DNA from: a virus
Strand: one strand, 5' to 3'
Virus record (IMG/VR): IMGVR_UViG_3300021406_000029
Span: 1 to 34,579 of that record
Length of the DNA: 34,579 bases
Positions 7,983 through 20,963 of the stretch are shown in pieces. The notes beneath the pieces were generated by a model that saw nothing but the letters and a program-made list of their open reading frames with translations, made no database searches and had not been told where the DNA came from. How positions within the stretch are numbered: position 1 is the first letter of the stretch; every line of letters begins with the position of its first letter. Position numbers and translations under genes: made by a program.

Positions 7983-8012
7983 TGTATACAATTTCAACCC
8001 GATTGTATACAA
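7983..8012. promoter_or_regulatory. Two tandem TGTATACA operator-like palindromes
   Basis: Perfect palindromes TGTATACA lie at 7983-7990 and 8004-8011 (the second within TTGTATACAA, 8003-8012), with centres 21 bp apart, two helical turns. They sit between the divergent portal and 8034 genes, where the core promoter of the rightward gene should be (its ribosome site AAAGGAG is at about 8022). The same palindrome recurs in five other intergenic places. Paired, helically phased sites are typical of cooperative repressor binding. Confidence 0.65.
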
Positions 8013-8033
8013 TGAAAGAAAAAAGGAGCTACT

Positions 8034-8441
8034 ATGAACGAAGATACAGTTGCAGCAATGATGAAGCAGCGAAAAAAGTACTTTATGCTCAAGTCAGCTG
8101 TATCCCAATCTCTGCTCTGCAACACAAAACTGGAAGCCCTCGGTGACAGGGTCATCATGGAATTCCGGAGATTCTTCGAAACTTCTGACATTTACCTTGA
8201 AATAGAATTGATCCAGCTGAGTATGAAATTCATACGCAAAAGCGGCGGTAAAAAATATCTCCGTTATTTCCTTTCCATCGATCATAGTGGCACTGATATA
8301 GACACTTCGAAAGAAATATGTGCACATATACGGTCGCTGCTTGAAGCATCCAGAGTCGATTATGAATCCGTATCTCCAAAGAATGAGAAGACCATCGAGA
8401 TAGAGTTCTACTCGCGCTATTCTGATGGCAACGATGTCTAA
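8034..8441 (+). CDS. Unknown protein, operator-controlled early gene
   Basis: A 135-residue protein preceded by an excellent AAAGGAG site. It looks soluble and alpha/beta: two helical segments at the start (KKYFMLKSAVSQSLL), a central basic stretch (KSGGKKYLRYF) and a C-terminal part with short strands (KTIEIEFYSRYSD). I do not recognise a family. It is the first gene of a two-gene plus-strand unit that stands alone inside minus-strand late and packaging genes, directly behind two TGTATACA palindromes, so it is probably expressed at a different time from its neighbours. A regulator or anti-host function would fit but is not shown. Confidence 0.65.
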   Translation: MNEDTVAAMMKQRKKYFMLKSAVSQSLLCNTKLEALGDRVIMEFRRFFETSDIYLEIELIQLSMKFIRKSGGKKYLRYFLSIDHSGTDIDTSKEICAHIRSLLEASRVDYESVSPKNEKTIEIEFYSRYSDGNDV

Positions 8442-8634
8442 GATGGAACGGCTGATAAAGCAGTTTTGGGATGTAAGCAAACCAAGCGTCGCTACAAGAG
8501 CTCCTCTCACAGAGATAGAGCAAGAACTCTACGAGGAGCGTGCAGCCATCATGCAGTACGATGCAGGTATGTCCCGCAAAGATGCAGAAATGGCCGCACT
8601 ACAATATATACTCGGTTATCGGCACAAGCCCTAG
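8425..8634 (+). CDS. Small protein with ERAAIM-type helical motif
   Basis: A 69-residue protein overlapping the previous gene by 17 bp. The segment YEERAAIMQYDAGMSRKDAE (about residues 37-56) resembles a short helical motif seen in phage and plasmid primase/replication proteins and in small orphan phage proteins, where its role is not settled. No good ribosome site precedes the ATG at 8425 or the alternative ATG at 8434, so expression by translational coupling is likely. Its TAG stop shares bases with the stop of the convergent gene at 8631. Confidence 0.55.
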   Translation: MATMSKMERLIKQFWDVSKPSVATRAPLTEIEQELYEERAAIMQYDAGMSRKDAEMAALQYILGYRHKP

Positions 8635-8891
8635 GCGGAAACATTGTGCGCAGGGATGCTGTCGGGACCAATCAGCTCATAGATCTTCGCATAAACGGAA
8701 TCAAACAACTCCACGGCTTTCTTATTGCCTTTAACCTTCTCGGATAGGTAACTTTCATTAGTGCCGAATATGACCTGCAGCGCGTAGTAGCCATCTTCTA
8801 GTTCCATTACGTGCATAAACTTGATCAACTCGATGTTGACGAGTACGCCCGCTTTCTTCTCAGTTGCGCCCAGTAGTATAAATTTAGCCAA
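8631..8891 (-). CDS. Small alpha/beta protein, family member 1
   Basis: An 86-residue protein starting with TTG at 8891 behind GAGGG. Pattern: short N-terminal strand (MAKFILL), a second strand with NIELIKFMHV, a beta hairpin (GYYALQVIFGT) and a C-terminal helix (KKAVELFDSVYAKIYELI). The next three upstream genes follow the same plan, so I treat them as diverged tandem copies. No enzyme motif, signal peptide or membrane segment. Function unknown; small diverged tandem copies near the packaging genes are compatible with inhibitors of host defence, but this is only a guess. Confidence 0.65.
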   Translation of the reverse strand: MAKFILLGATEKKAGVLVNIELIKFMHVMELEDGYYALQVIFGTNESYLSEKVKGNKKAVELFDSVYAKIYELIGPDSIPAHNVSA

Positions 8892-9123
8892 TTTTACCCT
8901 CTATTAGATCCAATACAATATTTCTCAAAAGGCGCGCCTCTTCTATTGTAGCAAAGGGCTTGCTAACCACCGTACTACCAGTCTCTGAATCAATCTGACA
9001 AATGCTAACAACCCATCCAGATAGGGCGCGACCTTCACATACCTCTATCTCTTTTACATAGTCTATATTAATTGTAAGATCACACTTAAAGTATTCTGTG
9101 GGTAAGCGTACAAATTTAGCCAT
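8884..9123 (-). CDS. Small alpha/beta protein, family member 2
   Basis: A 79-residue protein with the strong site AAAGGAG upstream of its ATG. It begins MAKFVRLPTEYF and has NIDYVKEIEV in the second strand, then a hairpin (GWVVSICQID) and a helix (EEARLLRNIVLDLIEG). The start MAKF and the N-I-x-x-(I/V)-K motif are shared with the gene at 8631-8891, which it overlaps by 8 bp. These shared positions support descent from a common copy, although overall identity is low. Function unknown. Confidence 0.65.
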   Translation of the reverse strand: MAKFVRLPTEYFKCDLTINIDYVKEIEVCEGRALSGWVVSICQIDSETGSTVVSKPFATIEEARLLRNIVLDLIEGKIG

Positions 9124-9138
9124 TTAGTTCTCCTTTTG

Positions 9139-9423
9139 TTATTGCTCATGCGATGATGGGGCTAGCACAAATGGCGCTCCATCCTGGACTATCGGACGTG
9201 CGTGCTGCAAACGTATTTGATCTGCTATGGTATAAAACATATTGAGAGCATCATACTCACTTTCGTAAGGTAAGCTAGAATATTCTGTAGAATTTACCAA
9301 AGTGATTACCAGCGTAAAATGATTAGGCGCTTCCCTATCGACAGCTAGTGCCGCGATATAGAATATATCTACAAGCACCTCCTCTCCATCAACAGGATCG
9401 GTCAGTTGTAAGTAGTCAGGCAT
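9139..9423 (-). CDS. Small alpha/beta protein, family member 3
   Basis: A 94-residue protein with GGAGG ten bases before the ATG. It follows the same order of elements as its two downstream neighbours: N-terminal strand (MPDYLQL), a strand with VDIFYIAALAV, a hairpin (HFTLVITLVN), then a helix (ALNMFYTIADQIRL), with an additional disordered C-terminal tail. The similarity is at the level of pattern rather than identity. It overlaps the previous gene by 22 bp. Function unknown. Confidence 0.6.
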   Translation of the reverse strand: MPDYLQLTDPVDGEEVLVDIFYIAALAVDREAPNHFTLVITLVNSTEYSSLPYESEYDALNMFYTIADQIRLQHARPIVQDGAPFVLAPSSHEQ

Positions 9424-9668
9424 TTGTCTTTATCCTCCATGTTCTCATAGATCAGCTTAAAGTACTGTTGTGCTTTCTCTTCTGTATGGAACGTATATTC
9501 AGTAGTCATGATGGCCTTATGATCTTCTTTCATACACACCTCAATGATCCATACATGCATCCATACGAGCTTATCTTTCCACAACTTGACGCCTGCTACC
9601 TCTTTCATTTCTAAGAGATGTACTTTGTTCTCATCATCGGTGATTAGGATATCCTTGCTCTTTCTCAT
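9402..9668 (-). CDS. Small alpha/beta protein, family member 4 (most diverged)
   Basis: An 88-residue protein. It starts MRKSKDILITDD, then has a strand HLLEMKEVAGVKL, a Trp-rich hairpin (WMHVWIIEVCM) and a C-terminal helix (EEKAQQYFKLIYENME). The fold order matches the three genes downstream. Its ATG overlaps the stop of the 49-residue gene at 9665 (ATGA), so the five genes from 9814 to 8631 are translated as a tight group. Function unknown. Confidence 0.6.
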   Translation of the reverse strand: MRKSKDILITDDENKVHLLEMKEVAGVKLWKDKLVWMHVWIIEVCMKEDHKAIMTTEYTFHTEEKAQQYFKLIYENMEDKDKCLTTYN

Positions 9669-9814
9669 TTCTTCCTACCTTCATGATCATCCCTCATCTT
9701 ATCGTATAAATACTCTAGCAGCATGAGTATGCATCCCATTTCCTTCTTGGTGAACCTGCGTTTAAAGCACTCATCGCACAACAATTTGATTCCCTTTACC
9801 GCCAAAGCATCCAT
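9665..9814 (-). CDS. Small Cys- and Lys-rich protein, 49 aa
   Basis: A 49-residue reading frame starting at ATG 9814 behind GGAGG (six-base spacing), three bases beyond the large-terminase stop, and ending in an ATGA overlap with the next gene. It contains LLCDECFKRRFTKKE with a C-x-x-C pair and a third Cys soon after (MGCILML), then a helical tail. A metal-binding knuckle with only one C-x-x-C pair would need dimerisation. The strong ribosome site and the tight fit between genes argue that it is real despite its size. Function unknown. Confidence 0.6.
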   Translation of the reverse strand: MDALAVKGIKLLCDECFKRRFTKKEMGCILMLLEYLYDKMRDDHEGRKK

Positions 9815-9816
9815 CG

Positions 9817-11310
9817 CTACCTCCCACCATATAATGCGTGATAATCCACGTTATTCCCACCGGGCCATTCAAAAGTTGCATCGAGCAGCCTACTCAAGGA
9901 ATCGATCATGTCGTCATGGATGCCTACAGGGAACGCTAGATACTCTTCTTCGATGAACTCCTCAATTAAATCTACTACAATACCTTCATAGTTGGTCTTC
10001 ACTAACTTCTCAGGAAGATACACGCGCTGCTCATAGAAGTAAGGAATAAGTCTACGGATACGATCCTCCTTGGAAAGGCTGCCACCGATCTCTGTGATGA
10101 AGAACCGATAGTTGCGCTCATCCATAGCTTTCTTCATATACTCAGCGTCAAGTTGCATTCCGTAACGCTCATAGAGCACATATTTAGGTCTGTACTTAGC
10201 ATGTAGTTGAAACAGGGCATCCTCGCGTTCTCTCAGGTTAAGTTTATCCCTAACCCAGTCCAGCACGTAAATGTTCCTGTCCTGTCCAAGGCCAACCACG
10301 CACATGGAGGTATAGTCACTGCTCTTCTTCTTAGAGGAGGCAGGATCGATCGTGATGTAGCAGTTATAAGCACTACTGCTAAGCTTGCCCTTGTAGAACA
10401 TGAGCCAGTCACGCATGAACTCGCCGCCACCCATCGGGGCAGGGTTCTGTTGGTATTGTCCAGCAAATGCGTAAGCACCGAGAGCCCTTTTTTCCTTCTC
10501 GATCAGCTCACCATTCATTCTATCGGGATGGAGTAGTTCCCCTTCCTCAACAGTCTTCTTGAATGCCCCAAAGTCATAGACATGTTTCTTCTCAGCAATA
10601 AGCTGGATCTTCAAATGCTCCCATCCACCCTTCTCGAGCAAATGTCCCGTCAGATCGTCCTGATGCAGTCTTTGCATAATAACAATGATAACACCGTTCT
10701 CCTTATCATTGAGCCTAGTAGCAAAGCTTTGGTCAAACCAAGTGTTGGCATTATCGCGCTCAGCTTGTGAACGAGCCTGCAGAGCCGACAAGGGATCGTC
10801 TACGATGAGGAAGTTGCCTCCTTCCCCCGTAACAGTGCCACCCGTTGATGTTGCGATTCTAAAACCCCTTTCCGTCGTAACATACTTGGCCTTGGTATTT
10901 TGATCTTCTAACAACTGAACATGAGGAAATAACCATTTGTACCATTCGGTCTGTATTACTGCCCTGCAATCTACTGAATGCTTCATGGATAGGTCGCTGG
11001 AGTAACTGGCGCACATGATCTGTTCACCTGGGTTGTGCCCCAGCAAGTATGCAGGGAAGGCCACACTAACAGAGATGGATTTCAGAAACCTAGGAGGGAT
11101 GTTGATGATCAGCCGTGTTATCTGCCTATCGCGACAGGCCTGGAGGTATTCTGCTATCAGATCAATGTGCCAGTTGTGTTTATAGGAAGCATTCGGATCC
11201 ACGACACGAAAGCATCCACGAATGAATTCGGATAGATTGGTACGATACTCTGCCTGGATCACTCGGATCTTTTCTTCTTCAGATAGTGTATCTAGGAAAC
11301 TTCCTTGCAT
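9817..11310 (-). CDS. terL: Terminase large subunit
   Basis: A 497-residue DNA-packaging motor. The ATPase half has the Walker A-like NIPPRFLKS (residues 70-78) and Walker B FLIVDDP (167-173). The nuclease half carries the RNase H-like acidic set: IDPASS with D322, YERYG with E381, and GIHDDMIDS with D466, D467 and D470. It cuts concatemers and pumps DNA through the portal. The start overlaps the small-terminase gene by 19 bp, a usual arrangement. The terminase order (small, large) is kept, but unlike P22 several small unknown genes lie between it and the portal. Confidence 0.93.
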   Translation of the reverse strand: MQGSFLDTLSEEEKIRVIQAEYRTNLSEFIRGCFRVVDPNASYKHNWHIDLIAEYLQACRDRQITRLIINIPPRFLKSISVSVAFPAYLLGHNPGEQIMCASYSSDLSMKHSVDCRAVIQTEWYKWLFPHVQLLEDQNTKAKYVTTERGFRIATSTGGTVTGEGGNFLIVDDPLSALQARSQAERDNANTWFDQSFATRLNDKENGVIIVIMQRLHQDDLTGHLLEKGGWEHLKIQLIAEKKHVYDFGAFKKTVEEGELLHPDRMNGELIEKEKRALGAYAFAGQYQQNPAPMGGGEFMRDWLMFYKGKLSSSAYNCYITIDPASSKKKSSDYTSMCVVGLGQDRNIYVLDWVRDKLNLREREDALFQLHAKYRPKYVLYERYGMQLDAEYMKKAMDERNYRFFITEIGGSLSKEDRIRRLIPYFYEQRVYLPEKLVKTNYEGIVVDLIEEFIEEEYLAFPVGIHDDMIDSLSRLLDATFEWPGGNNVDYHALYGGR

Positions 11311-11675
11311 TCTGTCTCTATAAGTCTCGATTTCATGCGCTCTAATATCTCAGCGTCTTCGTTTTTTAAGTTGTAGTTCACCATCACTTGGTTATTGATC
11401 GCCACTAAGGGATCTTTCTTCACTGGGATAATTCTATCCATAACGATTTTAATGCAGGTAACATCCCCTTGCTCAGCCAATTGTATGGTCTTAGAGATGA
11501 TACTTTCTGCTTTCTCTTCCATCATGGCCATGGCCTGTTTGACGGTAGATTTAAAGTTCAAAGTACCTTTTGGCTTGCCTCCAGGGTTGCCTGATTTACC
11601 CTTTTGGAACCCATTATACCTAAGTTTTTCAGGTTGAATTTCTGTTGTTTTCTGAACTTCAACAGCTTCATTCAT
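11292..11675 (-). CDS. DUF5681-type protein, probable small terminase
   Basis: A 127-residue protein with the FQKGKSGNPGGKPKG motif (residues 23-37) typical of the DUF5681 domain, often found directly upstream of large terminase genes, then a helical basic region (FKSTVKQAMAMMEEK) and a C-terminal helical region. The gene overlaps the large terminase. Small terminases bind the packaging site and regulate the motor. The DUF5681 assignment is fairly firm; the small-terminase role rests on context. The ribosome site is weak. Confidence 0.7.
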   Translation of the reverse strand: MNEAVEVQKTTEIQPEKLRYNGFQKGKSGNPGGKPKGTLNFKSTVKQAMAMMEEKAESIISKTIQLAEQGDVTCIKIVMDRIIPVKKDPLVAINNQVMVNYNLKNEDAEILERMKSRLIETECKEVS

Positions 11676-11677
11676 GA

Positions 11678-11908
11678 TTACAAATCATCTGGACTAGAGT
11701 GAATACGAGGAACAATCCTCACAGGAACAACTTTTGCATGCTTAATTATTTTAGATGTATAGCTCTGTAAGTCGCGCACAGCCTGATCTGTTGGAGTTTC
11801 ATTCATAGCAGCCACAATGCTTGCGAACTGCACCCGTACATCATTATTAAGTGCCATCATCTTATCTACCTCCAACTTATCCTGCAAAGTCATGCGATCA
11901 GATTTCAT
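11678..11908 (-). CDS. Unknown small protein
   Basis: A 76-residue protein behind AGGGA. The N-terminal 50 residues look helical and charged (LQDKLEVDKMMALNN), followed by a more extended, Pro- and Val-rich C-terminus (AKVVPVRIVPRIHSS). No known motif. It lies 2 bp from the DUF5681 gene and overlaps the next gene, so it belongs to the packaging transcript. A DNA-binding or packaging accessory role is only suggested by place. Confidence 0.55.
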   Translation of the reverse strand: MKSDRMTLQDKLEVDKMMALNNDVRVQFASIVAAMNETPTDQAVRDLQSYTSKIIKHAKVVPVRIVPRIHSSPDDL

Positions 11909-12096
11909 ACTTTTTCCCTGGGCATTAAATGAATTATAGGACAGATCTCTATAAGTTCTTCAATCTCGCCTTCTATTTCAAAAAGATTGTTTCTGAGTTC
12001 ATTCATTAGATAAACATGATGATTGAGGTCTTCCCAATAACCTTCAATCCTATTCTTTAACTCGGAAAGTCTCTCCAGAAGATTCATACTTTTCAT
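11905..12096 (-). CDS. Small coiled-coil protein
   Basis: A 63-residue, highly helical protein with Leu/Ile at heptad spacing (LLERLSELKNRIEGY, then LFEIEGEIEELIEI) and no transmembrane segment. It overlaps both neighbours by 4 bp, implying coupled translation. I cannot assign a function; small coiled-coil proteins next to terminases sometimes aid packaging, but nothing here is diagnostic. Confidence 0.55.
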   Translation of the reverse strand: MKSMNLLERLSELKNRIEGYWEDLNHHVYLMNELRNNLFEIEGEIEELIEICPIIHLMPREKV

Positions 12097-12296
12097 AGTT
12101 TAGCTTCCAAATTAGCCATCTTTACTTTGAGTGCATCAATCTCAGACAACAGGTCCACTTTGACCTTTGAAACAGAGGCATCGAAATGATTCAGCATAAC
12201 GCCTGCATGATCTTCTAGAGTGCTTTTGAACTTCTCTGCAAACATTTCCAAGTCTGTTTTTACTTCCGTAGCTGCGCCTTCAATAATATTGCTCAT
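12093..12296 (-). CDS. Small helical protein, phasin-like pattern
   Basis: A 67-residue protein taken from the ATG at 12296, which has GGGAG eight bases upstream; a longer frame starting further upstream would run through the operator and lacks a ribosome site. The sequence is one long amphipathic helix pair (VKTDLEMFAEKFKSTLED, then VKVDLLSEIDALKVKMANLE). The C-terminal SEIDALKxKxANLExKL pattern resembles short leucine-zipper oligomerisation tails. It is the first gene of the packaging operon and lies just behind a TTGTATACAA palindrome. Confidence 0.55.
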   Translation of the reverse strand: MSNIIEGAATEVKTDLEMFAEKFKSTLEDHAGVMLNHFDASVSKVKVDLLSEIDALKVKMANLEAKL

Positions 12297-12320
12297 CTTA
12301 TGCTCCCTTGTATGCTTTAA

Positions 12321-12330
12321 TTGTATACAA
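12321..12330. promoter_or_regulatory. TTGTATACAA palindrome between divergent genes
   Basis: A perfect 10-bp palindrome located 25 bp upstream of the 12296 gene and 55 bp upstream of the 12385 gene. An imperfect copy (TTGTATGCTT) follows at 12308-12317. On the minus strand the sequence includes TACAAT, a possible -10 element, so a bound protein would block the packaging operon promoter. Confidence 0.6.
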
Positions 12331-12384
12331 ATAATAGCAAGTCTCGTAGAGTAAATCAATCAGTAATTACATTATGGAGTAAAA

Positions 12385-12777
12385 ATGTTGGATGTTGGAT
12401 TAGGGCCCACAGAAGCACAATTATGCATTCAGTTTATGAATCAGCTAAACCAGCTAAAGCAGCTAAATTACTTCGAGACGCCTTTCATCATCATGCATGT
12501 GGCCAACGAGCGTAAGTCTACGGGAAGCAAACTGAATGATATGCTTTACAACAAGAAGCTCAAAGCAATGGGGATGCTTAAAGGCGCTCCAGATTACATC
12601 ATTACCTATCGTTTTGGTAAAACCGCTGCAATTGAATTCAAGAGAAATGCTAAATGCAAGCCTTCTCCAGCACAAATGGCCTTCAGGGAAGAATGGGAAG
12701 ATCTAGGAGCACCCTATCTACTGACTTACAGCGTCGAGGAAGCTATAGGATTTATCCATGATTTAACTGAATTATAA
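12385..12777 (+). CDS. VRR-NUC family nuclease (PD-(D/E)xK)
   Basis: A 130-residue protein with the compact PD-(D/E)xK nuclease core of the VRR-NUC family: an early acidic residue (E10 in TEAQ), MHVANER (37-43), the basic GSKLNDMLYNKK region, GAPDYII with D70, then IEFKR with E84 and K86, and PSPAQ (Q97) followed by a C-terminal helix pair. Phage VRR-NUC proteins act on branched or flap DNA, often as Holliday-junction resolvase-like enzymes clearing replication or recombination intermediates before packaging. GGAG precedes the ATG. It stands divergent from the packaging operon and shares its operator region. The family call is strong; the substrate is inferred. Confidence 0.82.
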   Translation: MLDVGLGPTEAQLCIQFMNQLNQLKQLNYFETPFIIMHVANERKSTGSKLNDMLYNKKLKAMGMLKGAPDYIITYRFGKTAAIEFKRNAKCKPSPAQMAFREEWEDLGAPYLLTYSVEEAIGFIHDLTEL

Positions 12778-12796
12778 TGCTTTCTTATATTTTCTA

Positions 12797-12825
12797 TTGA
12801 CAACTACGCTATTTTATACTATTCT
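12797..12825 (+). promoter_or_regulatory. Sigma70 promoter for the 12855 gene
   Basis: Consensus -35 TTGACA (12797-12802) and -10 TATTCT (12820-12825) with a 17-bp spacer. A second possible -10 (TATACT, 12815-12820) lies inside the spacer. The start codon with AAAGGAG follows 29 bp downstream. No TGTATACA site overlaps it, so this gene may be expressed constitutively or early. Confidence 0.65.
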
Positions 12826-12854
12826 ATTGTTATCTTATGATAAAGGAGATAGCA

Positions 12855-13250
12855 ATGCAGCACTTTAAAACCATACAACAATACGGTCAGGATCTCATAA
12901 CCGAGTTTGTCTGCGCAGTGGAAAGAGAATGCCCCCAAGAAATGGTGAGGGAACAATCCTATGTAGAACACTTCAAGCGCACAGTAGGTACATTCCTTTC
13001 GCTTGCTAATGATGACTATGCAGCAAAGCAGGCTAAGGTGAGAGGCTGGGATGATTACGCTGCCAAAGTGATCGATGCAATGTTCGATCGTAGTTATGAA
13101 GGCATTGTGTATGATGACAGTTTGGACAACATTACTAATCTATGCGAGGAGCTCATCTCAGCAATCGAATGTGTTTCTGAGGAAATGGATGATGCTGAAT
13201 ACGAACATAAACGTCAACTTGTGAGTGATTACAGATGGATGGTATTGTAA
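12855..13250 (+). CDS. Unknown acidic protein
   Basis: A 131-residue protein from ATG 12855, which has AAAGGAG six bases upstream; the in-frame ATG at 12837 would place that site inside the gene. It is acidic and almost wholly helical (ITEFVCAVERECPQ; LCEELISAIECVSEEMDD), with no membrane segment. Repeated Asp/Glu clusters and small size fit an early host-takeover or DNA-mimic protein, but I cannot support a specific function. It has its own good promoter and ends just before a strong bidirectional terminator. Confidence 0.65.
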   Translation: MQHFKTIQQYGQDLITEFVCAVERECPQEMVREQSYVEHFKRTVGTFLSLANDDYAAKQAKVRGWDDYAAKVIDAMFDRSYEGIVYDDSLDNITNLCEELISAIECVSEEMDDAEYEHKRQLVSDYRWMVL

Positions 13251-13254
13251 TCTG

Positions 13255-13262
13255 TGTATACA
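13255..13262. promoter_or_regulatory. TGTATACA palindrome downstream of the 12855 gene
   Basis: A perfect 8-bp palindrome located five bases after the stop codon, between two convergent genes. It is the one copy that does not sit upstream of any gene, which weakens a pure promoter-operator reading unless it acts at a distance, for example by looping. Confidence 0.45.
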
Positions 13263-13280
13263 TCTGATATAAAAACTCTG

Positions 13281-13330
13281 CCAGGAAGGGTAAGATATCG
13301 CTGCGATAACTTCACTTTCCTCCTTCCTGG
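13281..13330. terminator. Bidirectional terminator between convergent genes
   Basis: Arms CCAGGAAGG (13281-13289) and CCTTCCTGG (13322-13330) pair perfectly over 9 bp. The loop holds an inner hairpin TATCG-CTG-CGATA (about 13296-13308). The plus-strand arm is followed by TTCTTTATT and the minus-strand arm by AGAGTTTTTAT, so both directions end in a T-rich tract. It separates the convergent 12855 and 13335 genes. The large loop is unusual for an intrinsic terminator but the context is right. Confidence 0.7.
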
Positions 13331-13334
13331 TTCT

Positions 13335-14891
13335 TTATTGATAGCACTCTGCGGTTTCTAACATTGCAAGCTGTTCTTTCGTTCTGGCAATAAAGGCCGC
13401 ACTCAATTCATTCTTCTTGGAAAGTATCTCTTCCGTATCTGGTCTGCCATAAGTTGTGGCGAGTACGTATTCCCCACCAAGCCTAACGATCTCTCTCTCG
13501 ATATCGCTAACGCAAGCGCTTTGTTGTTCTACCAACAATGCATGCAATTCATTTTCTAATTCTTTTAAGAGTGCTGCATGACCGCTATCGCGTGCTTTAA
13601 CCATCCTAAAACCCAATGATATTCTAGCACGCTCAAAGTCTGTACAAACTGGCTTGGCTGCTTCAGGTCTAGCTATTGCCTGACAACGCATCTCGTGAGG
13701 AGTGTATCCTACAGGCTTGGATGAATTTCCGTACTTCTTTACACTTTCCTGCTTGTATTTGGATTGCCTATTGATCCATGCAAACCAATGCTCCGAATAT
13801 CTTTCTGGGGCAGCTGCTTTTGTACCCCGGTTAGGACTGAGATTGTATTGCTTAAACATCCGGAACTCTCTTTCTATCTCTTCAGGAGTAAAGCCAAGCA
13901 TCCTGCCATCCTTGATCATGGAATCACTTAACTGCAGGTCACTAATTGCAATGAGATTGCTCATATTTTCATCCTTTTCCTTCTTATTTTTAAAAAATGC
14001 ATACATTCGTAGGTTAACAAAACCCGAGTCCTGGATTGTTGGAACCAATACATCCATGCATTCATGCTTTTTTATTTCTTTTTTCTTTGATTTGTACCTG
14101 TGCCGGATAATAAAGCGGTAAAATACCTGAGAATTCGACCTGATAGCCTCCAGCTTGGTGATTCTTTCGTGTAATAAATACAGCCAGTAAGGATTATTAT
14201 TATATTCTATAGTCTGTTCTCGCACAGGAATCTGGAAGTCATAAGAGGCTTTCTTACGATTCTCAGTTCGATGATCTTGGTAATCAGGATTTCTCACTAC
14301 CAGTCTAGTATCATATCCTAAGCAACGATTTAGATAATCCTCATCCATCTCGAGCTCTGCCAGTCTCTCCATATCAAGACGGAACATTCGAGTGTTGTCT
14401 TTCATGATCTTTCCGTTTTTCCTGATGACGCGCTGCAAGCCTTTAGGCGTTTCCTGAACAATGAGAATGCCCAGCTTTATCAAATCAGCAAATATACGAC
14501 GTACAGTCATCTCGGAGACAGAACAATTGCTCAAAATGTAATTGGCAAATTGTTTGTAAGTGGCTTTCCACCAGAAATGCTCTTCATCCCAGAGGCCAAA
14601 GCGGGAAATCTTGATCTTACCAGCAAGCTTGGCTATCTTGAAAGTACGCGCTTGTGAATGAAGGGTATTAGTAGCATAAGCTAATAGGTTTCGTCTGGGA
14701 ACAAAAGGGAAGCGACTGTCAGGACCACATAGATAGGGAAGGTCCAGTTTCTCCTGGAAAGGTCTTTTACGACGGTTCGACTTAGAGTCGAAGCTATCAC
14801 CAGGAGTTGCAACTTGTTCTAAGGAACCTTCACTATTTGCAATCTGTAGTGCTTTTTCGTATTGACAGTAGGTATTTTTAGAAGTATACAT
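13335..14891 (-). CDS. Replication initiator-like protein with winged helix
   Basis: A 518-residue basic protein. A winged-helix segment lies at about 108-147 (YKQFANYILSNCSVSEMT then VRRIFADLIKLGILIVQE), as in plasmid and phage replication initiators. A Lys/Arg-rich middle (KSKKKEIKK near 268) follows. Residues about 325-380 have a DnaT-like pattern (GFTPEEIEREFRMFK, HWFAWINRQSKYK) that in other proteins contacts single-stranded DNA and loads helicase. No helicase, primase or polymerase motif is present. Iteron-like repeats and a strong hairpin lie immediately upstream. I infer that it recruits the host replication machinery at that origin. The ribosome site is poor (AGGA about 13 bases upstream), and its start codon overlaps a TGTATACT sequence, so it may be tightly regulated. 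Confidence 0.65.
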   Translation of the reverse strand: MYTSKNTYCQYEKALQIANSEGSLEQVATPGDSFDSKSNRRKRPFQEKLDLPYLCGPDSRFPFVPRRNLLAYATNTLHSQARTFKIAKLAGKIKISRFGLWDEEHFWWKATYKQFANYILSNCSVSEMTVRRIFADLIKLGILIVQETPKGLQRVIRKNGKIMKDNTRMFRLDMERLAELEMDEDYLNRCLGYDTRLVVRNPDYQDHRTENRKKASYDFQIPVREQTIEYNNNPYWLYLLHERITKLEAIRSNSQVFYRFIIRHRYKSKKKEIKKHECMDVLVPTIQDSGFVNLRMYAFFKNKKEKDENMSNLIAISDLQLSDSMIKDGRMLGFTPEEIEREFRMFKQYNLSPNRGTKAAAPERYSEHWFAWINRQSKYKQESVKKYGNSSKPVGYTPHEMRCQAIARPEAAKPVCTDFERARISLGFRMVKARDSGHAALLKELENELHALLVEQQSACVSDIEREIVRLGGEYVLATTYGRPDTEEILSKKNELSAAFIARTKEQLAMLETAECYQ

Positions 14892-14948
14892 TTAATAACA
14901 AATCGTTCCTGTAGTCAGATACTTGTATGTTTTGTTGTAGCAAATCGA

Positions 14949-14988
14949 TTGGTTCTAATAACAGTTGGTTGGTTCTAATGACAATTGG
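14949..14988. repeat. Two tandem 20-bp iteron-like repeats
   Basis: TTGGTTCTAATAACAGTTGG at 14949-14968 is followed without gap by TTGGTTCTAATGACAATTGG at 14969-14988, with two differences. They lie 58 bp upstream of the initiator-like gene in a 270-bp noncoding stretch. Short tandem repeats beside an initiator gene are the classic layout of an iteron origin. Two copies is few; related TTG-rich sequence follows. An operator function is the main alternative. Confidence 0.6.
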
Positions 14989-15032
14989 GCCGGTTGTTTT
15001 GTTTGATAGGTTTTGAAAAGACTCTATTGCGT

Positions 15033-15082
15033 GGGCCGCCAAACGCTTTCTTCCCGTCTAAAGGTTTCGGCGTAAGCGGCCC
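15033..15082. other. GC-rich hairpin in probable origin region
   Basis: GGGCCGC (15033-15039) and GCGGCCC (15076-15082) form a 7-bp perfect GC stem. The interior can extend it imperfectly (CCAAAC with GTTTCGG). The plus-strand right arm is followed by an AT-rich tract (GTTATTTAAAATTT), which resembles an unwinding element or a weak terminator. On the minus strand no T tract follows. Together with the adjacent repeats it suggests an origin region, but a terminator for rightward transcription is possible. Confidence 0.5.
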
Positions 15083-15146
15083 GTTATTTAAAATTTCCCT
15101 ATTATTATCATATATTTAAGCTAGTAAGCAAGCACTTATTCTGCTT

Positions 15147-15156
15147 TTGTATACAA
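15147..15156. promoter_or_regulatory. TTGTATACAA palindrome upstream of the initiator region
   Basis: A perfect 10-bp palindrome, 6 bp beyond the stop codon of the 43-residue membrane protein gene and about 255 bp upstream of the initiator start. If the initiator is transcribed from here, the palindrome would cover its promoter. Confidence 0.55.
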
Positions 15157-15161
15157 TTATT

Positions 15162-15293
15162 TTATTTGAACAGCGGTCTGACAAATTCCAGCACCCACAT
15201 TCCCATCAAGATAAATCCTCCAACAGCCGCCAAATCCGCCATTTTGCCAGCGGTTCTCATTACAAACCCACCAGCGTTTTCATCTTTTTCCAT
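15162..15293 (-). CDS. Small single-TM protein, 43 aa
   Basis: A 43-residue frame from ATG 15293 with GAGG upstream, overlapping the end of the IS30-like HTH gene by 34 bp. After a charged start (MEKDENAGG) and a basic residue or two, residues about 19-38 form one hydrophobic helix (ADLAAVGGFILMGMWVLEF), ending RPLFK. This looks like a small inner-membrane protein. Size and topology would also suit a phage superinfection or growth inhibitor, but this is inference only. Confidence 0.55.
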   Translation of the reverse strand: MEKDENAGGFVMRTAGKMADLAAVGGFILMGMWVLEFVRPLFK

Positions 15294-15640
15294 AATGTAT
15301 CCTCGCTCTTAGTTACATTCGCACGTAAATCCGACAGACATTTATTATATCCCACCGGATCTCCGATTGTACCATCAATAGCTTCATCCTTTCTCGTATA
15401 TTTCCTAGGACTGCCTCCATCAGGCTTTCTCTTAGGTTGATGCTTCTTATAATCAGCATCCTTCTGAGCACGAATGGCATTGTAAGGCCCACCCTCACTG
15501 CGCTTCAATTCATACAAAACGGACGTTACACTCCTGCCAAGCATGCCTGCAATAGCCGTGCAGGTCTTCTTACGGTAATATTTCTCGACTACTTTCCGCT
15601 CTTCAAACGTAAAATGCCTTGGTTTTTTATCAATAGTCAT
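15260..15640 (-). CDS. IS30-type HTH DNA-binding protein without transposase domain
   Basis: A 126-residue protein from ATG 15640 (GAGG upstream). Residues 9-50 match the IS30-transposase N-terminal helix-turn-helix pattern (FTFEERKVVEKYY, AIAGMLGRSVTSVLYELKR), followed by a basic AxxAxxxADxxK-like arm (IRAQKDADYKKHQPKRK). The rest (70-126) is Lys-rich with no DDE catalytic core, and no terminal repeats are seen, so it is not a transposase. It is probably a phage transcription regulator or DNA-architecture protein. A TGTATACA palindrome lies 27 bp upstream of its start, so it is a candidate autoregulated regulator for those sites. Confidence 0.65.
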   Translation of the reverse strand: MTIDKKPRHFTFEERKVVEKYYRKKTCTAIAGMLGRSVTSVLYELKRSEGGPYNAIRAQKDADYKKHQPKRKPDGGSPRKYTRKDEAIDGTIGDPVGYNKCLSDLRANVTKSEDTLWKKMKTLVGL

Positions 15641-15666
15641 ATTTTCCTCTTGCTTTTGCAACTGTT

Positions 15667-15674
15667 TGTATACA
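15667..15674. promoter_or_regulatory. TGTATACA palindrome upstream of the HTH gene
   Basis: A perfect palindrome 27 bp upstream of the start codon at 15640, between the ribosome site and the long inverted repeat at 15684-15754. Its closeness to the start suits direct repression of the HTH gene. Confidence 0.55.
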
Positions 15675-15683
15675 TATTGCTGT

Positions 15684-15754
15684 TAACGCCACCTACTTTT
15701 ATACACACAGGGCGCATTGCAGCGTGGACTTCGCAGTCAATGTAGGTGGCGTTA
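15684..15754. repeat. 13-bp perfect inverted repeat with structured loop
   Basis: TAACGCCACCTAC (15684-15696) and GTAGGTGGCGTTA (15742-15754) are exact reverse complements, separated by 45 bp. Inside, ATTG/CAAT and GCG/CGC can pair further. It follows directly after the stop of the smallest membrane-protein frame (the stop lies within the right arm). There is no clear T tract on either side, so it is not a standard terminator. It may be a terminator-like RNA end, a stability element or a recombination or origin site. Confidence 0.6.
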
Positions 15755-15826
15755 TTCAAATGCCGCCCACACCATAATTATCATAACCACCAACATTAAT
15801 GCTAGTAGCATACCTACATCACACAT
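15752..15826 (-). CDS. Possible 24-aa membrane peptide
   Basis: From the ATG at 15826 a 24-residue peptide reads MCDVGMLLALMLVVMIIMVW and four more residues (AAFE); it is nearly all hydrophobic. No convincing ribosome site is present at this ATG; an internal ATG (giving 19 residues) has GTAGG close by. It ends a run of tiny membrane-protein genes, which is the main reason to list it. A longer frame from further upstream overlaps the previous gene in another phase and I do not accept it. Low confidence. Confidence 0.3.
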   Translation of the reverse strand: MCDVGMLLALMLVVMIIMVWAAFE

Positions 15827-15837
15827 ATGCAGACCAA

Positions 15838-15993
15838 CTATTTGGAGCCTGGCTTTCCTTCTGAAAAATAATCGGCCCCTCCAAGGAGGATAAAGGCGAC
15901 AACGCCGTAACACCACCAAGTAAGCACCGACAGCAGAGGGAACAAAAACAAACACCCAATAATAAAGGCTAGTGCTAGAATACTAAAATTCAT
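15838..15993 (-). CDS. Small membrane protein, 51 aa
   Basis: Taken from ATG 15993, which has GGAGGAAGG upstream; longer versions have no ribosome site. It has two hydrophobic stretches (FSILALAFIIGCLFLF and LSVLTWWCYGVVAFILL) and a charged tail (DYFSEGKPGSK). It overlaps the preceding gene by 11 bp. Two-TM hairpin topology is likely. Function unknown; because the lysis cassette with a recognisable holin is elsewhere, this is not needed as a holin. Confidence 0.55.
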   Translation of the reverse strand: MNFSILALAFIIGCLFLFPLLSVLTWWCYGVVAFILLGGADYFSEGKPGSK

Positions 15994-16174
15994 CACCTTC
16001 CTCCTGCTGTATATCCCTAAAAAATAGGGGCTTGGGCATTGATTCGTACATGTGCATGATAGCAGCCAACAACGCACACCCCACTCCTATAGATATGCAC
16101 CATATCAATACGGATGATAGGGAAACGCCGGCGATACAGCTAACTATGAAAGCAAAAGCTAATAATTGTACCAT
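15983..16174 (-). CDS. Small membrane protein, 63 aa
   Basis: A 63-residue protein behind GAGGAGA. Two hydrophobic stretches (LLAFAFIVSCIAGVSLSS; VLIWCISIGVGCALLAAIM) are followed by a short acidic tail (QQEEGDEF) likely on the cytoplasmic side. No family recognised. Its strong ribosome site and position between similar small membrane genes support it being expressed. Confidence 0.6.
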   Translation of the reverse strand: MVQLLAFAFIVSCIAGVSLSSVLIWCISIGVGCALLAAIMHMYESMPKPLFFRDIQQEEGDEF

Positions 16175-16176
16175 TC

Positions 16177-16401
16177 TTATCTCCTCAATTCATCTGCAAT
16201 ACGTTTATGCATTCTTTGGATACTTTCCATTCTGTCATCCATTTCTCGGTACCATATATTAAAGTAGTTCAGAAATACTTTGAAACTCACACAACACACA
16301 CAAACAAAAAAGCACACCCAGAAAAGATACGATGATAAAACAAAAGACAAATATAACAATCCGATCGATGTGATCATCAAATAATCTTCTAATCTATACA
16401 T
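16177..16401 (-). CDS. Small membrane protein with helical charged tail, 74 aa
   Basis: A 74-residue protein. Residues about 8-45 are very hydrophobic and Cys/Phe-rich (LYLSFVLSSYLFWVCFF), probably two TM passes or one long hairpin, followed by an amphipathic tail (REMDDRMESIQRMHKRI). The ATG overlaps the stop of the HTH gene upstream, so translation is likely coupled; the ribosome site is weak. Function unknown. Confidence 0.55.
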   Translation of the reverse strand: MYRLEDYLMITSIGLLYLSFVLSSYLFWVCFFVCVCCVSFKVFLNYFNIWYREMDDRMESIQRMHKRIADELRR

Positions 16402-16615
16402 TCTGTTCTGCTTCTTGGCTGTGATCTACAGTGTTCTTATTCATGTACGCTATGACATCATCCTTGTAATAACGAATCGGGGAACGTAATCCAGAACCTA
16501 ACTTTATGTACTTTGGACCCACTTTGTTAAGACGCCACTGCGCTAGTGTTCCTATATTGAATCCTAATAATTCAGCGGCCTCTGCAGGCTTCAGCATGAT
16601 ACGATCTTTATCCAT
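16394..16615 (-). CDS. MerR/excisionase-like HTH protein
   Basis: A 73-residue protein with the helix-turn-helix of the AlpA/excisionase (HTH_17-like) group: LKPAEAAELLGFNIGTLAQW (residues 8-27), a basic wing (PKYIKLGSGLRSPIRYY) and the closing DDVIAYM. Such proteins act as excisionases or transcription regulators. It overlaps the annealing-protein stop by 8 bp and is in the same transcript. With no tyrosine integrase in the genome, a regulator role seems more likely than excision, or it could help the serine recombinase. It is another candidate reader of the TGTATACA sites, although this family usually binds direct repeats. Confidence 0.7.
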   Translation of the reverse strand: MDKDRIMLKPAEAAELLGFNIGTLAQWRLNKVGPKYIKLGSGLRSPIRYYKDDVIAYMNKNTVDHSQEAEQNV

Positions 16616-17492
16616 TGAATTTACCCATTACTTGATTGTTGATTGATCCCAAAGGTTTAAAACTCTCGACTTCCCCGTCTTCAGAGACCTCAAATCTCCC
16701 TCTATCCTTTGTCTTCTCGTTAGCCTCGATGATATAGACATGAGCCTCGCGCGAGCGGAACATATCGCCAAGCTCGGATGCATCTGAAGGATATTGCGCA
16801 GCAAACTTAGAAAGTTCTTTCTTATGAAGTTCCTTCCAATGCTTGTAATCTTCGAGTGCTTCTAGATTCGTGATTTCTTCAATCTTGAACTTCAGATACT
16901 CATGAGCTTCATTGCTTTCCATGAACTTACCATCAAGACCGAAAACATTCTTATGCTTCTCAAAAGTCTCCTTCATATCCTGATTCACTGCCTCAGTGAT
17001 CGTCATCGGTGCTGCAGGAGAAACGTTTCTAATTGTTTCAAGCTCTGTTTCATCTAAAATACCAAGTCCTGTTATAGATAAAGTCACGCGACGCTTAGCC
17101 TTCGTTTCGGCTTTCATAAAAGCATTTGCTAAAGCATCCCCTTTCAATCCGGTAATATTAACCGCTCCGATGGATACATCAATACGACCACTGGCATCCG
17201 ACGCATAAGCAATCACCATATGAATACCATTTTCGGTGCTGCGTTCGAGTTTGGTGATACTCACACCATGAATTTTCCGTAACTGATCTGTGGCATCCTT
17301 TTTGGCATACATCGTCAATTTACCATTAAGGGTCATGTACTCAAAAGGTTTTGTCAAAGGATTCAAACGTAACGATTCGCAGGTCTTGTTGTAGAATTCC
17401 AAACGCTGACTGGAAGTCAAAGAGCTGAGATTTCCAGTTACCAATACCGCTTCTATGGCAGCTATCACGTCTTCTTTAATTAGATTATTCAT
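16608..17492 (-). CDS. Single-strand annealing protein, RecT/Bet-like (putative)
   Basis: A 294-residue protein from ATG 17492 with CGGAG upstream. Two conserved-looking blocks stand out: LRLNPLTKPFEYMTLNGKL (41-59) followed by YAKKDATDQLRKIHG (62-76), recalling the LNP-(F/L)-TK-x-x-Y ... D-G segment of lambda Bet, and KAETKAKRRVTLSITGLG (127-144) followed by ILDETE. The second block occurs in phage proteins that sit in recombination or replication modules. I infer a Redbeta/RecT-type annealing protein that pairs complementary strands during recombination-dependent replication. No exonuclease partner is adjacent; the VRR-NUC protein at 12385 could serve, but this is not shown. The C-terminal third is acidic, as in many single-strand binding partners. 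Confidence 0.6.
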   Translation of the reverse strand: MNNLIKEDVIAAIEAVLVTGNLSSLTSSQRLEFYNKTCESLRLNPLTKPFEYMTLNGKLTMYAKKDATDQLRKIHGVSITKLERSTENGIHMVIAYASDASGRIDVSIGAVNITGLKGDALANAFMKAETKAKRRVTLSITGLGILDETELETIRNVSPAAPMTITEAVNQDMKETFEKHKNVFGLDGKFMESNEAHEYLKFKIEEITNLEALEDYKHWKELHKKELSKFAAQYPSDASELGDMFRSREAHVYIIEANEKTKDRGRFEVSEDGEVESFKPLGSINNQVMGKFNG

Positions 17493-17760
17493 CGTTTTTT
17501 CTCCGTTCGAACTCTTCCGAGTCCCTTTTATCAAGTTCATCTTCCCACATTTTTACCGTTTCAAGATCAACATTCATTGCTTCTCGGCAAAGCTCTATCA
17601 GCTCGTTTAAAACAGTCCCAGTTTTAGGATTGGTTTTTACAATATTCTCCATATGACGGAGAATATGGAAACAAGCATTGGCACTGCCATTTGATTCAGC
17701 GATAAATATCTGCAACTCTCTGTACGTATGCTCGCGAATATATGATTCTACTGCTGGCAT
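17485..17760 (-). CDS. Unknown helical protein
   Basis: A 91-residue protein with an AGGAGA site. It is helical throughout (YRELQIFIAESNGSANACFH; VLNELIELCREAMN) and ends with a strongly charged tail (DKRDSEEFERRKNDE). No family recognised. It overlaps the annealing-protein gene by 8 bp and is its immediate upstream partner, so a recombination accessory role is plausible but unproven. Confidence 0.55.
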   Translation of the reverse strand: MPAVESYIREHTYRELQIFIAESNGSANACFHILRHMENIVKTNPKTGTVLNELIELCREAMNVDLETVKMWEDELDKRDSEEFERRKNDE

Positions 17761-17770
17761 AATCTTTCTC

Positions 17771-18016
17771 CTAAACTGTTATAAGACTATTATACATTTT
17801 CATTCGTTTTATTTCGTCTTCCAATACTTTGATGGACTTCTCCGTCTCTTCGGAGCAATACTCAATCAAATAATTGAAAAACGACTCCGGCTCGACTTCG
17901 CTCCCTATGTGTTTTCTGATGAGTTGCTTTATCTCAAAAAACGCTGACATTCGCCCGCGCGCTATAGAAACTTCTGCAAGATCTTTATCCTGTCCCGGTA
18001 ACGCCGCTGGTCTCAC
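17771..18016 (-). CDS. Unknown first gene of the early leftward operon
   Basis: I prefer the GTG at 18016 (81 residues): the promoter -10 at 18046-18051 implies transcription from about 18039, and AGGA lies nine bases before the GTG. An upstream TTG at 18031 would leave almost no leader. The protein has a polar N-terminus (RPAALPGQDKDLAEVS), then a helical region with FFEIKQLIRKHIG and a charged C-terminal helix (SIKVLEDEIKRMKM). No motif is recognised. As the gene closest to a perfect consensus promoter it should be expressed early. Confidence 0.55.
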   Translation of the reverse strand: MRPAALPGQDKDLAEVSIARGRMSAFFEIKQLIRKHIGSEVEPESFFNYLIEYCSEETEKSIKVLEDEIKRMKMYNSLITV

Positions 18017-18045
18017 TGTGCAATTCCTCAAGTTGTTATACTTTT

Positions 18046-18073
18046 ATTATACATAGAAATAATGTATTGTCAA
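18046..18073 (-). promoter_or_regulatory. Consensus sigma70 promoter, early leftward operon
   Basis: On the minus strand TTGACA (18073-18068) and TATAAT (18051-18046), both perfect consensus hexamers, are separated by 16 bp. It drives the 18016-15752 operon. No TGTATACA palindrome overlaps it, so it is probably active straight after infection. Confidence 0.75.
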
Positions 18074-18173
18074 TATAAAATATCTATACGTATAATAATT
18101 GAATATTATAGCAAAGCGATGCATCCAGATGTTGAAAATCGCGGGGTCTTTACCACATAAATTGCGGATATTA

Positions 18174-18213
18174 TAGCGGAGAACCCCGGAGAAGTAGCGG
18201 AGAACTCCGAAGG
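18174..18213. repeat. Tandem ~20-bp repeat in the control region
   Basis: Unit TAGCGGAGAACCCCGGAGAA (18174-18193, plus one G) is followed directly by TAGCGGAGAACTCCGAAGG (18195-18213). A shorter related sequence ATATTATAGC occurs at about 18107 and again at about 18168. Direct repeats in the intergenic region between divergent operons suit binding of a regulator or initiator. Confidence 0.55.
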
Positions 18214-18216
18214 TAG

Positions 18217-18252
18217 CTGTCTAATTAGAGCTAATTTTTTCTAATTAGACAG
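18217..18252. terminator. 12-bp inverted repeat, terminator-like
   Basis: CTGTCTAATTAG (18217-18228) and CTAATTAGACAG (18241-18252) are exact reverse complements with a 12-base loop containing a further CTAATT. On the plus strand a run of six T follows at 18261-18266. It could terminate rightward transcription or act as a regulator-binding palindrome. Confidence 0.5.
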
Positions 18253-18256
18253 AGGA

Positions 18257-18335
18257 ATTATTTTTTACCCCTGTTGACAACAACTTTTAGGTACAGTGAA
18301 TTTAGGAGCTCCTTTGATACCAGGTAAAAAATAAT
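18257..18335 (+). promoter_or_regulatory. Inverted repeat enclosing a rightward promoter region
   Basis: ATTATTTTTTACC (18257-18269) and GGTAAAAAATAAT (18323-18335) are exact 13-bp reverse complements, 53 bp apart. Between them are a perfect -35 box TTGACA (18274-18279), a poor -10 (TGAATT, 18297-18302, 17-bp spacing) and a 10-bp palindrome AGGAGCTCCT (18304-18313). A strong -35 with a weak -10 suggests an activator-dependent rightward promoter for the recombinase/lysis unit. Confidence 0.5.
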
Positions 18336-18336
18336 C

Positions 18337-18344
18337 TGTATACA
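18337..18344. promoter_or_regulatory. TGTATACA palindrome upstream of the rightward unit
   Basis: A perfect palindrome 78 bp upstream of the 18422 gene and just past the inverted repeat. It would lie downstream of a start site for the promoter at 18274, where a bound repressor would block elongation or initiation of the recombinase/lysis operon. Confidence 0.6.
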
Positions 18345-18421: not shown

Positions 18422-18745
18422 ATGAGTGGGATATTTACGAAAAAACAGGCAGCTGTGTCGAAGATGTTTCAGATACGATTCGATTCGTACATCCGCAAAC
18501 ATTTCGATGTTGATTACCTGACGAGAGAGAATCTCGTTGCTAGCCTAGCACGAATGATGCGAAAACTCAACTTTAGAAAATTAGAAGATCATCGTATCGA
18601 CGGCTGCGTCTACATGATCAATTATTTTATGTGGCTGAGACTTAAGATGAAATTCATCGATGAAATCCCTCCGGACGCAGAACAAAAGATGTGGGATTGT
18701 TTCGCTTATACATTCAATCAGATGACAGGATATAAATATGACTAA
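18422..18745 (+). CDS. Unknown basic protein preceding the recombinase
   Basis: A 107-residue basic protein with AGGA eight to nine bases before ATG. It is helical (FTKKQAAVSKMFQIRFDSYI; LVASLARMMRKLNFRKLED) and rich in Lys, Arg, Met and aromatic residues. I do not recognise a family. It overlaps the recombinase gene by 8 bp, so the two are translated together and this may be a recombinase partner or regulator. Confidence 0.6.
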   Translation: MSGIFTKKQAAVSKMFQIRFDSYIRKHFDVDYLTRENLVASLARMMRKLNFRKLEDHRIDGCVYMINYFMWLRLKMKFIDEIPPDAEQKMWDCFAYTFNQMTGYKYD

Positions 18746-19421
18746 TACTATTATCGGCTATGCCCGTATCTCCACAGGAGATCAAACCCTTAATCTACAG
18801 ATGGATGCCCTCAAGGCTGCTGGGTGCACGAAGATCTTCCAAGACCAGGCCAGTGGCGTTAAGGAAAAAAGACAGGGATTGGACGCTGCTCTAGAGTATC
18901 TAAGAGAAGGCGATACAATCGTCGTATGGAAATACGACAGGATAAGCCGTAATGTCAAACATCTGTTGGAACTACTACATATATTTAAGGAGAAGAACGT
19001 AACTTTCCGAAGCATCACGGAAGGCATCGATACCTCTACCCCGATCGGTAAAATGATGTACACCATCATAGCAGGATTCGCCCAGCTCGAGCACGATACC
19101 ATCTGCGAACGGATTAGAGAAGGTGTGCACGCAGCCCGCGTAAGAGGGGAACCAACCGGTCGTCCAGAGAAAATAAAGAAAGAAGATCATCCAGCTTTTA
19201 AAGCCCTGTTCCTAGATAGAGAAGTGACCATCGAAAAAATATGCAAACACTTCAATGCCAGCAAAACCTGCGTGTACAATACAGCGCGCAAACTCGGAAT
19301 AGCAGCGCTACAACGCAAACTCGTCAACACAACTACTGTTGTGGACGTTCTTCCTGACTCAGACGATCCCGCTCCCGCGTCTCCACAATACACTTATCAA
19401 CCAGAATACTCAGAAAATTAG
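18738..19421 (+). CDS. Small serine recombinase (resolvase/invertase family)
   Basis: A 227-residue protein. The catalytic domain is complete: YARISTGDQ with R10 and the nucleophile S12, then KYDRISRN with D67, R68 and R71, and the long E-helix region ITEGIDTSTPIGKMMYTIIA leading to QLEHDTICERIREGV (116-130). A C-terminal helix-turn-helix follows (VTIEKICKHFNASKTCVYNT, about 163-182), then a Pro/Ser-rich tail about 30 residues longer than typical invertases. The size is that of Tn3-type resolvases and Hin/Gin invertases, not large serine integrases. Likely roles are multimer resolution or DNA inversion. Its 3' end overlaps the convergent RHH gene by 89 bp. Confidence 0.88.
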   Translation: MTNTIIGYARISTGDQTLNLQMDALKAAGCTKIFQDQASGVKEKRQGLDAALEYLREGDTIVVWKYDRISRNVKHLLELLHIFKEKNVTFRSITEGIDTSTPIGKMMYTIIAGFAQLEHDTICERIREGVHAARVRGEPTGRPEKIKKEDHPAFKALFLDREVTIEKICKHFNASKTCVYNTARKLGIAALQRKLVNTTTVVDVLPDSDDPAPASPQYTYQPEYSEN

Positions 19422-19527
19422 AGATACTACGGTATTCTGTTTTGGCCAGCTTCCGAATGTCGTCCAGTTTTCCGCGGTCTACCCTTGTCGATATCACTGC
19501 CTTCTGATTTTCTATGTTTCCTGCCAT
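19333..19527 (-). CDS. Ribbon-helix-helix (Arc/CopG-type) regulator
   Basis: A 64-residue protein from ATG 19527, preceded by AAAGGA; a longer upstream frame has no ribosome site and runs through the promoter. It has the RHH pattern: strand AVISTRVDR (10-18), helix A (GKLDDIRKLAKTEY) and helix B beginning SISNFLSILVDKCI (34-47), with an Arg/Glu/Gln-rich tail. RHH dimers insert the strand into the DNA major groove and bind short palindromes cooperatively in tandem, as MetJ and Arc do. It is therefore the best protein candidate for the TGTATACA sites. It has its own promoter containing a related palindrome and is antisense to the recombinase end. Confidence 0.75.
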   Translation of the reverse strand: MAGNIENQKAVISTRVDRGKLDDIRKLAKTEYRSISNFLSILVDKCIVETRERDRLSQEERPQQ

Positions 19528-20956: not shown

Positions 20957-20963
20957 GGGGAAA

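Follow-up and report, generated by a model that had tools for sequence, protein, structure and literature searches.

Genome-wide sets of short operators, phage-encoded ribbon-helix-helix (RHH) repressors and plasmid-borne RHH global regulators are each already established. We describe here a set of seven copies of the 8-bp palindrome TGTATACA in the phage genome IMGVR_UViG_3300021406_000029 (the whole stretch of 34,579 bp, hereafter the window), together with a 64-aa Arc-like RHH protein encoded in the same genome, which we propose as its reader. The pairing of an RHH protein with solitary 8-bp sites at most of a phage's units is a fresh instance, perhaps a variant, of these themes and not a new kind of system.

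The closest described systems each share part of this arrangement. Arc and Mnt of phage P22 are likewise small phage-encoded RHH proteins with an invariant strand arginine and operators over or beside their own promoter; they act at one local promoter region through operators of 21–23 bp, whereas the sites described here are 8 bp long and spread across most of the genome. RelB, the RHH antitoxin of E. coli, reads TTGTAATTACAA, with the hexad core [A/T]TGT[A/C]A, over positions -10 to +17 of its promoter and contacts bases through N5 and R7 (PMC2812701). The arms TTGTA...TACAA are common to relO (TTGTAATTACAA) and to the long form of the phage element (TTGTATACAA), and the operator lies over the start region in both (PMC2812701). 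By our own reading of the sequences, the contacting arginine of RelB would occupy the strand position equivalent to that of the phage RHH arginine. However, RelB acts together with the toxin RelE, and its half-sites must adjoin without a gap, while the phage sites are single or 21–31 bp apart.

Other systems resemble the locus in the layout of their sites. The omega protein of plasmid pSM19035 (MetJ/Arc family) is an RHH global regulator of a replicon acting via short dispersed repeats (PMC4803016), although these are arrays of 7-bp heptads on a plasmid and not isolated 8-bp palindromes in a phage. SPBRE of phage SPbeta was first found in silico as a repeated intergenic element and later turned out to form the operators of the master repressor MrpR (PMC10516654), a tyrosine-recombinase-like protein reading a 15 bp motif. 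Finally, a single phage repressor acts at many genome-wide sites in mycobacteriophages of the L5 type (PMC6550527), but these operators and stoperators are asymmetric 13-mers in one orientation, mostly off promoters and read by a helix-turn-helix (HTH) repressor. Copies of the present site are perfectly palindromic and mostly adjoin gene starts, and classification as L5-type stoperators was rejected on this ground.

Exact counting gave seven copies of TGTATACA in the window, at 7983, 8004, 12322, 13255, 15148, 15667 and 18337. In dinucleotide shuffles of the window the mean was 0.57 (standard deviation 0.71, maximum 3) and no shuffle reached seven; under a second-order Markov model 0.77 copies were expected (p = 2e-5 before correction), and by this model TGTATACA ranks first in over-representation among the 6-, 8- and 10-bp palindromes of the window. 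All seven copies fall in intergenic DNA, which makes up 13.4% of the genome, a placement with a chance probability of about 8e-7 (about 6e-6 if the pair at 7983 and 8004 is counted once). For 12322 and 15667, this assignment depends on choosing the better-supported ATG starts at 12296 and 15640 over upstream TTG starts. TGTATACA is also the most frequent 8-mer of intergenic DNA, where 0.09 copies would be expected. Three copies carry the 10-bp form TTGTATACAA (8003, 12321 and 15147). Allowing up to two mismatches to TTGTATACAA gave no enrichment in the window (21 matches against 20.6 expected), so the element is best described as a strict 8-mer with a weak T/A extension. A first-pass annotation of this DNA had reported seven copies lying between genes, three of them in the longer form and two spaced 21 bp apart, with one-base variants at 14883 and 19589; every one of these observations is borne out by the exact count, and the excess over shuffled sequence that it anticipated is present.

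Since the record maps as a complete circle of about 34.46 kb, the seven sites represent the entire set. The ends of the window (1–115 and 34465–34579) share an overlap of about 115 bp with a few mismatches, and a metagenome contig (G023) bridges the window end to the window start. Besides a portal protein, a terminase and an endolysin, the genome encodes an initiator-like protein and a DNA-invertase-family serine recombinase. The sites and the features around them are as follows (promoters from a consensus scan).

5840–7906, minus strand: portal protein gene, 688 aa, phrog_156, heading the left structural block
7983–7990: operator copy 1 of the tandem pair, between gene 8034 (plus) and the portal gene (minus); counterpart in G001 at 13213
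8003–8012: second operator of the tandem pair (copy 2), in the form TTGTATACAA; its distance to copy 1 is 21 bp, against 31 bp in G001
8034–8441, plus strand: small gene 8034, 135 aa, function unassigned, located downstream of the pair; its G001 counterpart is 82% identical
12093–12296, minus strand: first gene of the packaging operon, 67 aa; the operon runs on to the terminase large subunit (9817–11310)
12321–12330: operator TTGTATACAA, adjoining the predicted -10 of the packaging promoter and also upstream of the plus-strand nuclease-like gene
12331–12359, minus strand: predicted packaging-operon promoter TTGATT-17-TATTAT, with TG ahead of the -10
12385–12777, plus strand: nuclease/Holliday-junction-resolvase-like gene, pointing away from the packaging operon
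13255–13262: operator copy in the spacer of a weak minus-strand promoter-like element, TTTATA-18-TACAAT; CGTATACA in G001
13335–14891, minus strand: replication-initiator-like gene, 518 aa, phrog_678 (weak), RP-C match not significant
14883–14890: one-base variant, TGTATACT on the minus strand, over the initiator start codon
15147–15156: operator TTGTATACAA, adjoining the predicted -10 of the initiator promoter
15156–15184, minus strand: predicted initiator promoter TTGTCA-17-AATAAT
15260–15640, minus strand: IS30-like HTH_38 protein, 126 aa
15667–15674: operator copy, 26 bp ahead of the HTH_38 ATG; variant TTTATACA 31 bp off at 15698
16394–16615, minus strand: HTH_17 protein, 73 aa
18337–18344: operator copy preceding gene 18422 and the serine recombinase gene
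18422–19421, plus strand: gene 18422 (small, conserved, 107 aa) and a DNA-invertase/resolvase-type serine recombinase (227 aa)
19333–19527, minus strand: Arc-like RHH protein, 64 aa, the proposed reader
19573–19601, minus strand: predicted RHH-gene promoter TTGATA-17-TATAAT, 11/12
19589–19596: one-base variant TGTATACT, between the RHH gene (minus) and the lysis genes (plus)
19619–20771, plus strand: lysis genes, with a small membrane-like protein (19619), phrog_6637 (19876) and an endolysin (20328)

Three of the predicted promoters stand in a close relation to a site. The operator begins one base past the predicted -10 of the packaging promoter and immediately past that of the initiator promoter; at the strongly predicted RHH promoter the variant operator touches the -35 and sits in the spacer. 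At these positions a bound protein would block RNA polymerase, which makes repression the simplest reading. The copy at 18337 occupies the -35 position in a promoter-like element whose -35 is poor, where activation rather than repression may occur. The weak promoter-like element around 13255 is directed toward the packaging operon and is kept in G001.

Additional repeats lie in the same regions. Between the convergent genes next to 13255, a long hairpin (13281–13330; CCAGGAAGG...TATCGC-T-GCGATA...CCTTCCTGG) is identical at 50 of 50 bases in G001, where the flanking genes are 70–80% identical; it is possibly a bidirectional terminator or other cis element. The initiator gene is preceded by two TGT(C/T)ATTAGAACCAA direct repeats 20 bp apart, iteron-like in appearance (14949–14983), and its leader holds an inverted repeat, GGGCCGC...GCGGCCC (15033–15082). 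Immediately upstream of the HTH_38 gene stands a perfect 12-bp inverted repeat, AACGCCACCTAC...GTAGGTGGCGTT (15685–15753). Upstream of the RecT-like operon, the stretch 18177–18250 carries two more tandem pairs of palindrome-like elements. One, CGGAGAAC(C/T)CCG, has its members at 18177 and 18198 (spacing 21 bp); the other, TCTAATTAGA, has them at 18220 and 18240 (spacing 20 bp). These pairs, which are not conserved in G020, G021 or L140, may be operators of a second regulator.

Conservation was examined in relatives at two distances. The nearest, IMG/VR contig 3300037562_000156 (G001, L009/L097), shares 93% identity in TerL and 98% in the portal protein. More distant relatives were reached via the capsid, the RHH protein and a DNA pattern: G020 (L127), G021 (L128; 33 kb, TerL 59% identical to that of the window) and L140. 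Four copies of TGTATACA are found in G001. The packaging promoter and its site are identical to those of the window, and the pair upstream of the gene 8034 homolog retains both cores in diverged flanks. The spacing within this pair is 31 bp in G001 and 21 bp in the window, a difference of about one helical turn, and in both genomes the start of copy 2 precedes the gene 8034 ATG by 30 bp. The fourth copy covers the first codons of an inserted 288-aa open reading frame (ORF), HNH-endonuclease-like by sequence (L097 12263–13129), which is absent from the window and separates the portal gene from the operator pair.

In the distant relatives all exact copies, two in G021, two in L140 and a single one in G020, lie at orthologous places. 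Around 18337, TCTGTATACAAACG forms 14 consecutive invariant columns in the window, G020, G021 and L140, the next base being variable. The initiator start, where the window has only TGTATACT, a variant that had looked weak, carries exact TGTATACA in G021 and L140. The initiator N-terminal residues Y-T-S are retained in these two genomes while the residues that follow cannot be aligned by eye, a pattern that points to conservation of the DNA itself. The packaging promoter of G021 has TGTATACT at 32170. The RHH gene itself is present in every one of the four genomes in which its locus is covered (window, G020, G021 and L140), each time with a GTATAC-core site at its promoter; this site is a one-base variant in each, reading AGTATACA in G021 and L140. 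The expectation that relatives would keep the sites is thus supported by G001, G020, G021 and L140.

The pattern is absent from phages of the group that have no RHH gene. G002 and G006 (TerL about 60%) have no RHH gene and hold one exact copy apiece, within unrelated ORFs; no over-represented palindrome was convincing in these two genomes and no swapped operator could be read there. G026, G027 and most other phages of the group that were compared have no exact copy, G027 encoding a weak RHH-like protein (E-value 0.02).

Other elements were seen in the relatives. The palindrome GCGATATCGC occurs three times in the G020 record against 0.01 expected, with at least two copies (about 100–650) upstream of the recombinase unit. 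In G021, the elements ATTGCAAT and TTGCAATC adjoin GTATAC sites at about 5230–5260 and 32180–32220; ATTGCAAT, found five times against 1.6 expected, is a possible second operator. Two adjacent small genes of the window (20768–21152; 62 and 68 aa) are near-identical and stem from a recent tandem duplication; in G020 and G022 the best matches of both land on one overlapping stretch.

Taken together, enrichment, placement and conservation in relatives give good support to an operator set belonging to one regulator. We have very little doubt that the set is real, and on this sequence evidence the sites are almost certainly landing sites for a single phage control protein. The earlier proposal of one regulator over phage-wide units is therefore retained, with control of the portal and late genes as its weakest part: the pair is kept 30 bp ahead of gene 8034, whereas in G001 the HNH-like gene parts it from the portal gene.

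The best explanation, to which we assign a probability of roughly 0.6, is that the RHH protein reads the sites, mainly as a repressor. Its RHH signature is weak but consistent. Matches to Pfam RHH_5 (E-values 3e-4 to 9e-3) and to several PHROGs annotated ‘Arc-like repressor’ (0.01–0.06) are all weak, while the alignment with Arc and Mnt is gapless across the beta strand and helix A. Within the strand, the alternating V12, S14 and R16 make up a putatively DNA-facing V-S-R triad that does not vary between proteins 47% identical. Profile-profile comparison with RelB, Arc and Mnt singletons gave nothing significant save a weak Arc alignment. The RHH protein had no match in isolate phages and plasmids and the initiator none in phages and plasmids, a PDB sequence search gave no useful result, and literature searches for TGTATACA and for CcdA/GTATAC returned nothing relevant. 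No other gene accompanies the RHH gene on its strand; it overlaps the 3′ end of the recombinase gene, its neighbours being the recombinase and lysis genes. No toxin gene was recognised beside it, as an adjacent co-transcribed partner in a toxin-antitoxin module would be.

The length of the palindrome, 8 bp, would suit a single RHH dimer. In the mechanism that we propose, TGTATACA, lengthened to TTGTATACAA at the best sites, would be the operator of a phage-encoded regulator coordinating most transcription units. The two-stranded beta ribbon of an RHH dimer would enter the major groove of a single palindrome, with V, S and R of VISTRV facing the DNA. Repression would come from coverage of the start region at the packaging and initiator promoters and of the promoter of the RHH gene itself. 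Autoregulation, suggested by the conserved near-consensus site in or beside the RHH promoter in four genomes, would also touch the lysis operon opposite. Two dimers bound to the tandem pair would lie on the same face of the DNA and possibly cooperate. The protein may serve as the lysogeny repressor of a temperate or plasmid-like phage, or as an early-late switch. Binding by the RHH protein, its repressive effect and the cooperation of dimers are all inferred from these features.

Several observations weigh against this assignment. The RHH_5 scores, 20.8 bits at best (L140) and 17.8 for the window protein, fall below the curated cut-off of 26. AlphaFold2 monomer models built from 3 and 5 sequences were all-helical, with no ribbon; such models say little about what would be an obligate dimer with a shallow alignment, yet they lend the assignment no support. 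The RHH promoter carries a one-base variant rather than the perfect palindrome, site 13255 lies between convergent genes at the start of neither, and 15667 has no clear promoter adjoining it. Over the window as a whole, the consensus promoter scan gave 32 hits against 30 in shuffles, hence no excess. L140 and G021 are closely related and do not count as independent witnesses, and in both of them homologs of the HTH_17 protein co-occur with the sites.

This last point bears on the possibility that the sites are real and another phage protein reads them, which we regard as unlikely. The candidates are HTH_17, the IS30-like HTH_38 protein or a small conserved protein such as that of gene 18422. 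For HTH_17, the co-occurrence is offset by weak homologs in G002 and G006, which lack the site pattern, and no conserved exact site lies near the promoter of its own operon. The HTH_38 gene is placed between sites 15148 and 15667, but no homolog was found in the site-keeping G021 or any other compared genome and the viral scan was empty; HTH_38 was rejected as a common reader. The gene 18422 protein is conserved beside the best-conserved site, yet no DNA-binding domain was recognised in it. Among the three readers initially named, the RHH protein is thus favoured and HTH_38 disfavoured, while HTH_17 is possible and less likely.

A host transcription factor, tying the phage to a host regulon, would be in keeping with the short palindromes of this type that host regulators also read. 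This is improbable, given that the sites go with the phage lineage and the RHH gene; more distant phages of the group, some of which may share hosts, do not have them. We give similarly little credence to the palindromes being partition, replication or DNA-organising sites, or the -10/-35 elements themselves. The dispersed sites, one of them between convergent genes, and the plasmid-like flavour lent by the initiator and the resolvase-type recombinase speak for such roles, as does the likeness of TATACA and TACAAT to promoter hexamers, which the scanned promoters at 7985 and 18339 indeed use. However, no ParA-like gene was recognised among the scanned proteins and the site-bearing regions coincide with divergent gene starts. 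A fixed promoter element was rejected, since the site may abut the -10, sit in the spacer or lie at the -35, and since the change in pair spacing from 21 to 31 bp between the window and G001 excludes a fixed promoter spacing. Chance repetition of the palindrome is scarcely credible, being refuted by the enrichment and the orthologous conservation.

With the RHH protein as the preferred reader, the candidate regulon of this phage is fully mapped together with its proposed regulator, in a phage group known here from metagenome contigs only. With so short a palindrome, conserved strand residues and a spacing of 21/31 bp, the proposal is readily testable. If the RHH protein is the reader, an Arc-type protein rather than an HTH repressor would control most of the phage genome. 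A further and more tentative step, which we consider possible but doubtful, concerns a phage lineage in which neither a CI-like repressor nor an integrase was recognised: the 64-aa RHH protein would be its master repressor across the whole genome, possibly for immunity. It would read isolated palindromes of 8 bp at the units for replication, packaging, the recombinase and lysis, some of them over translation starts.

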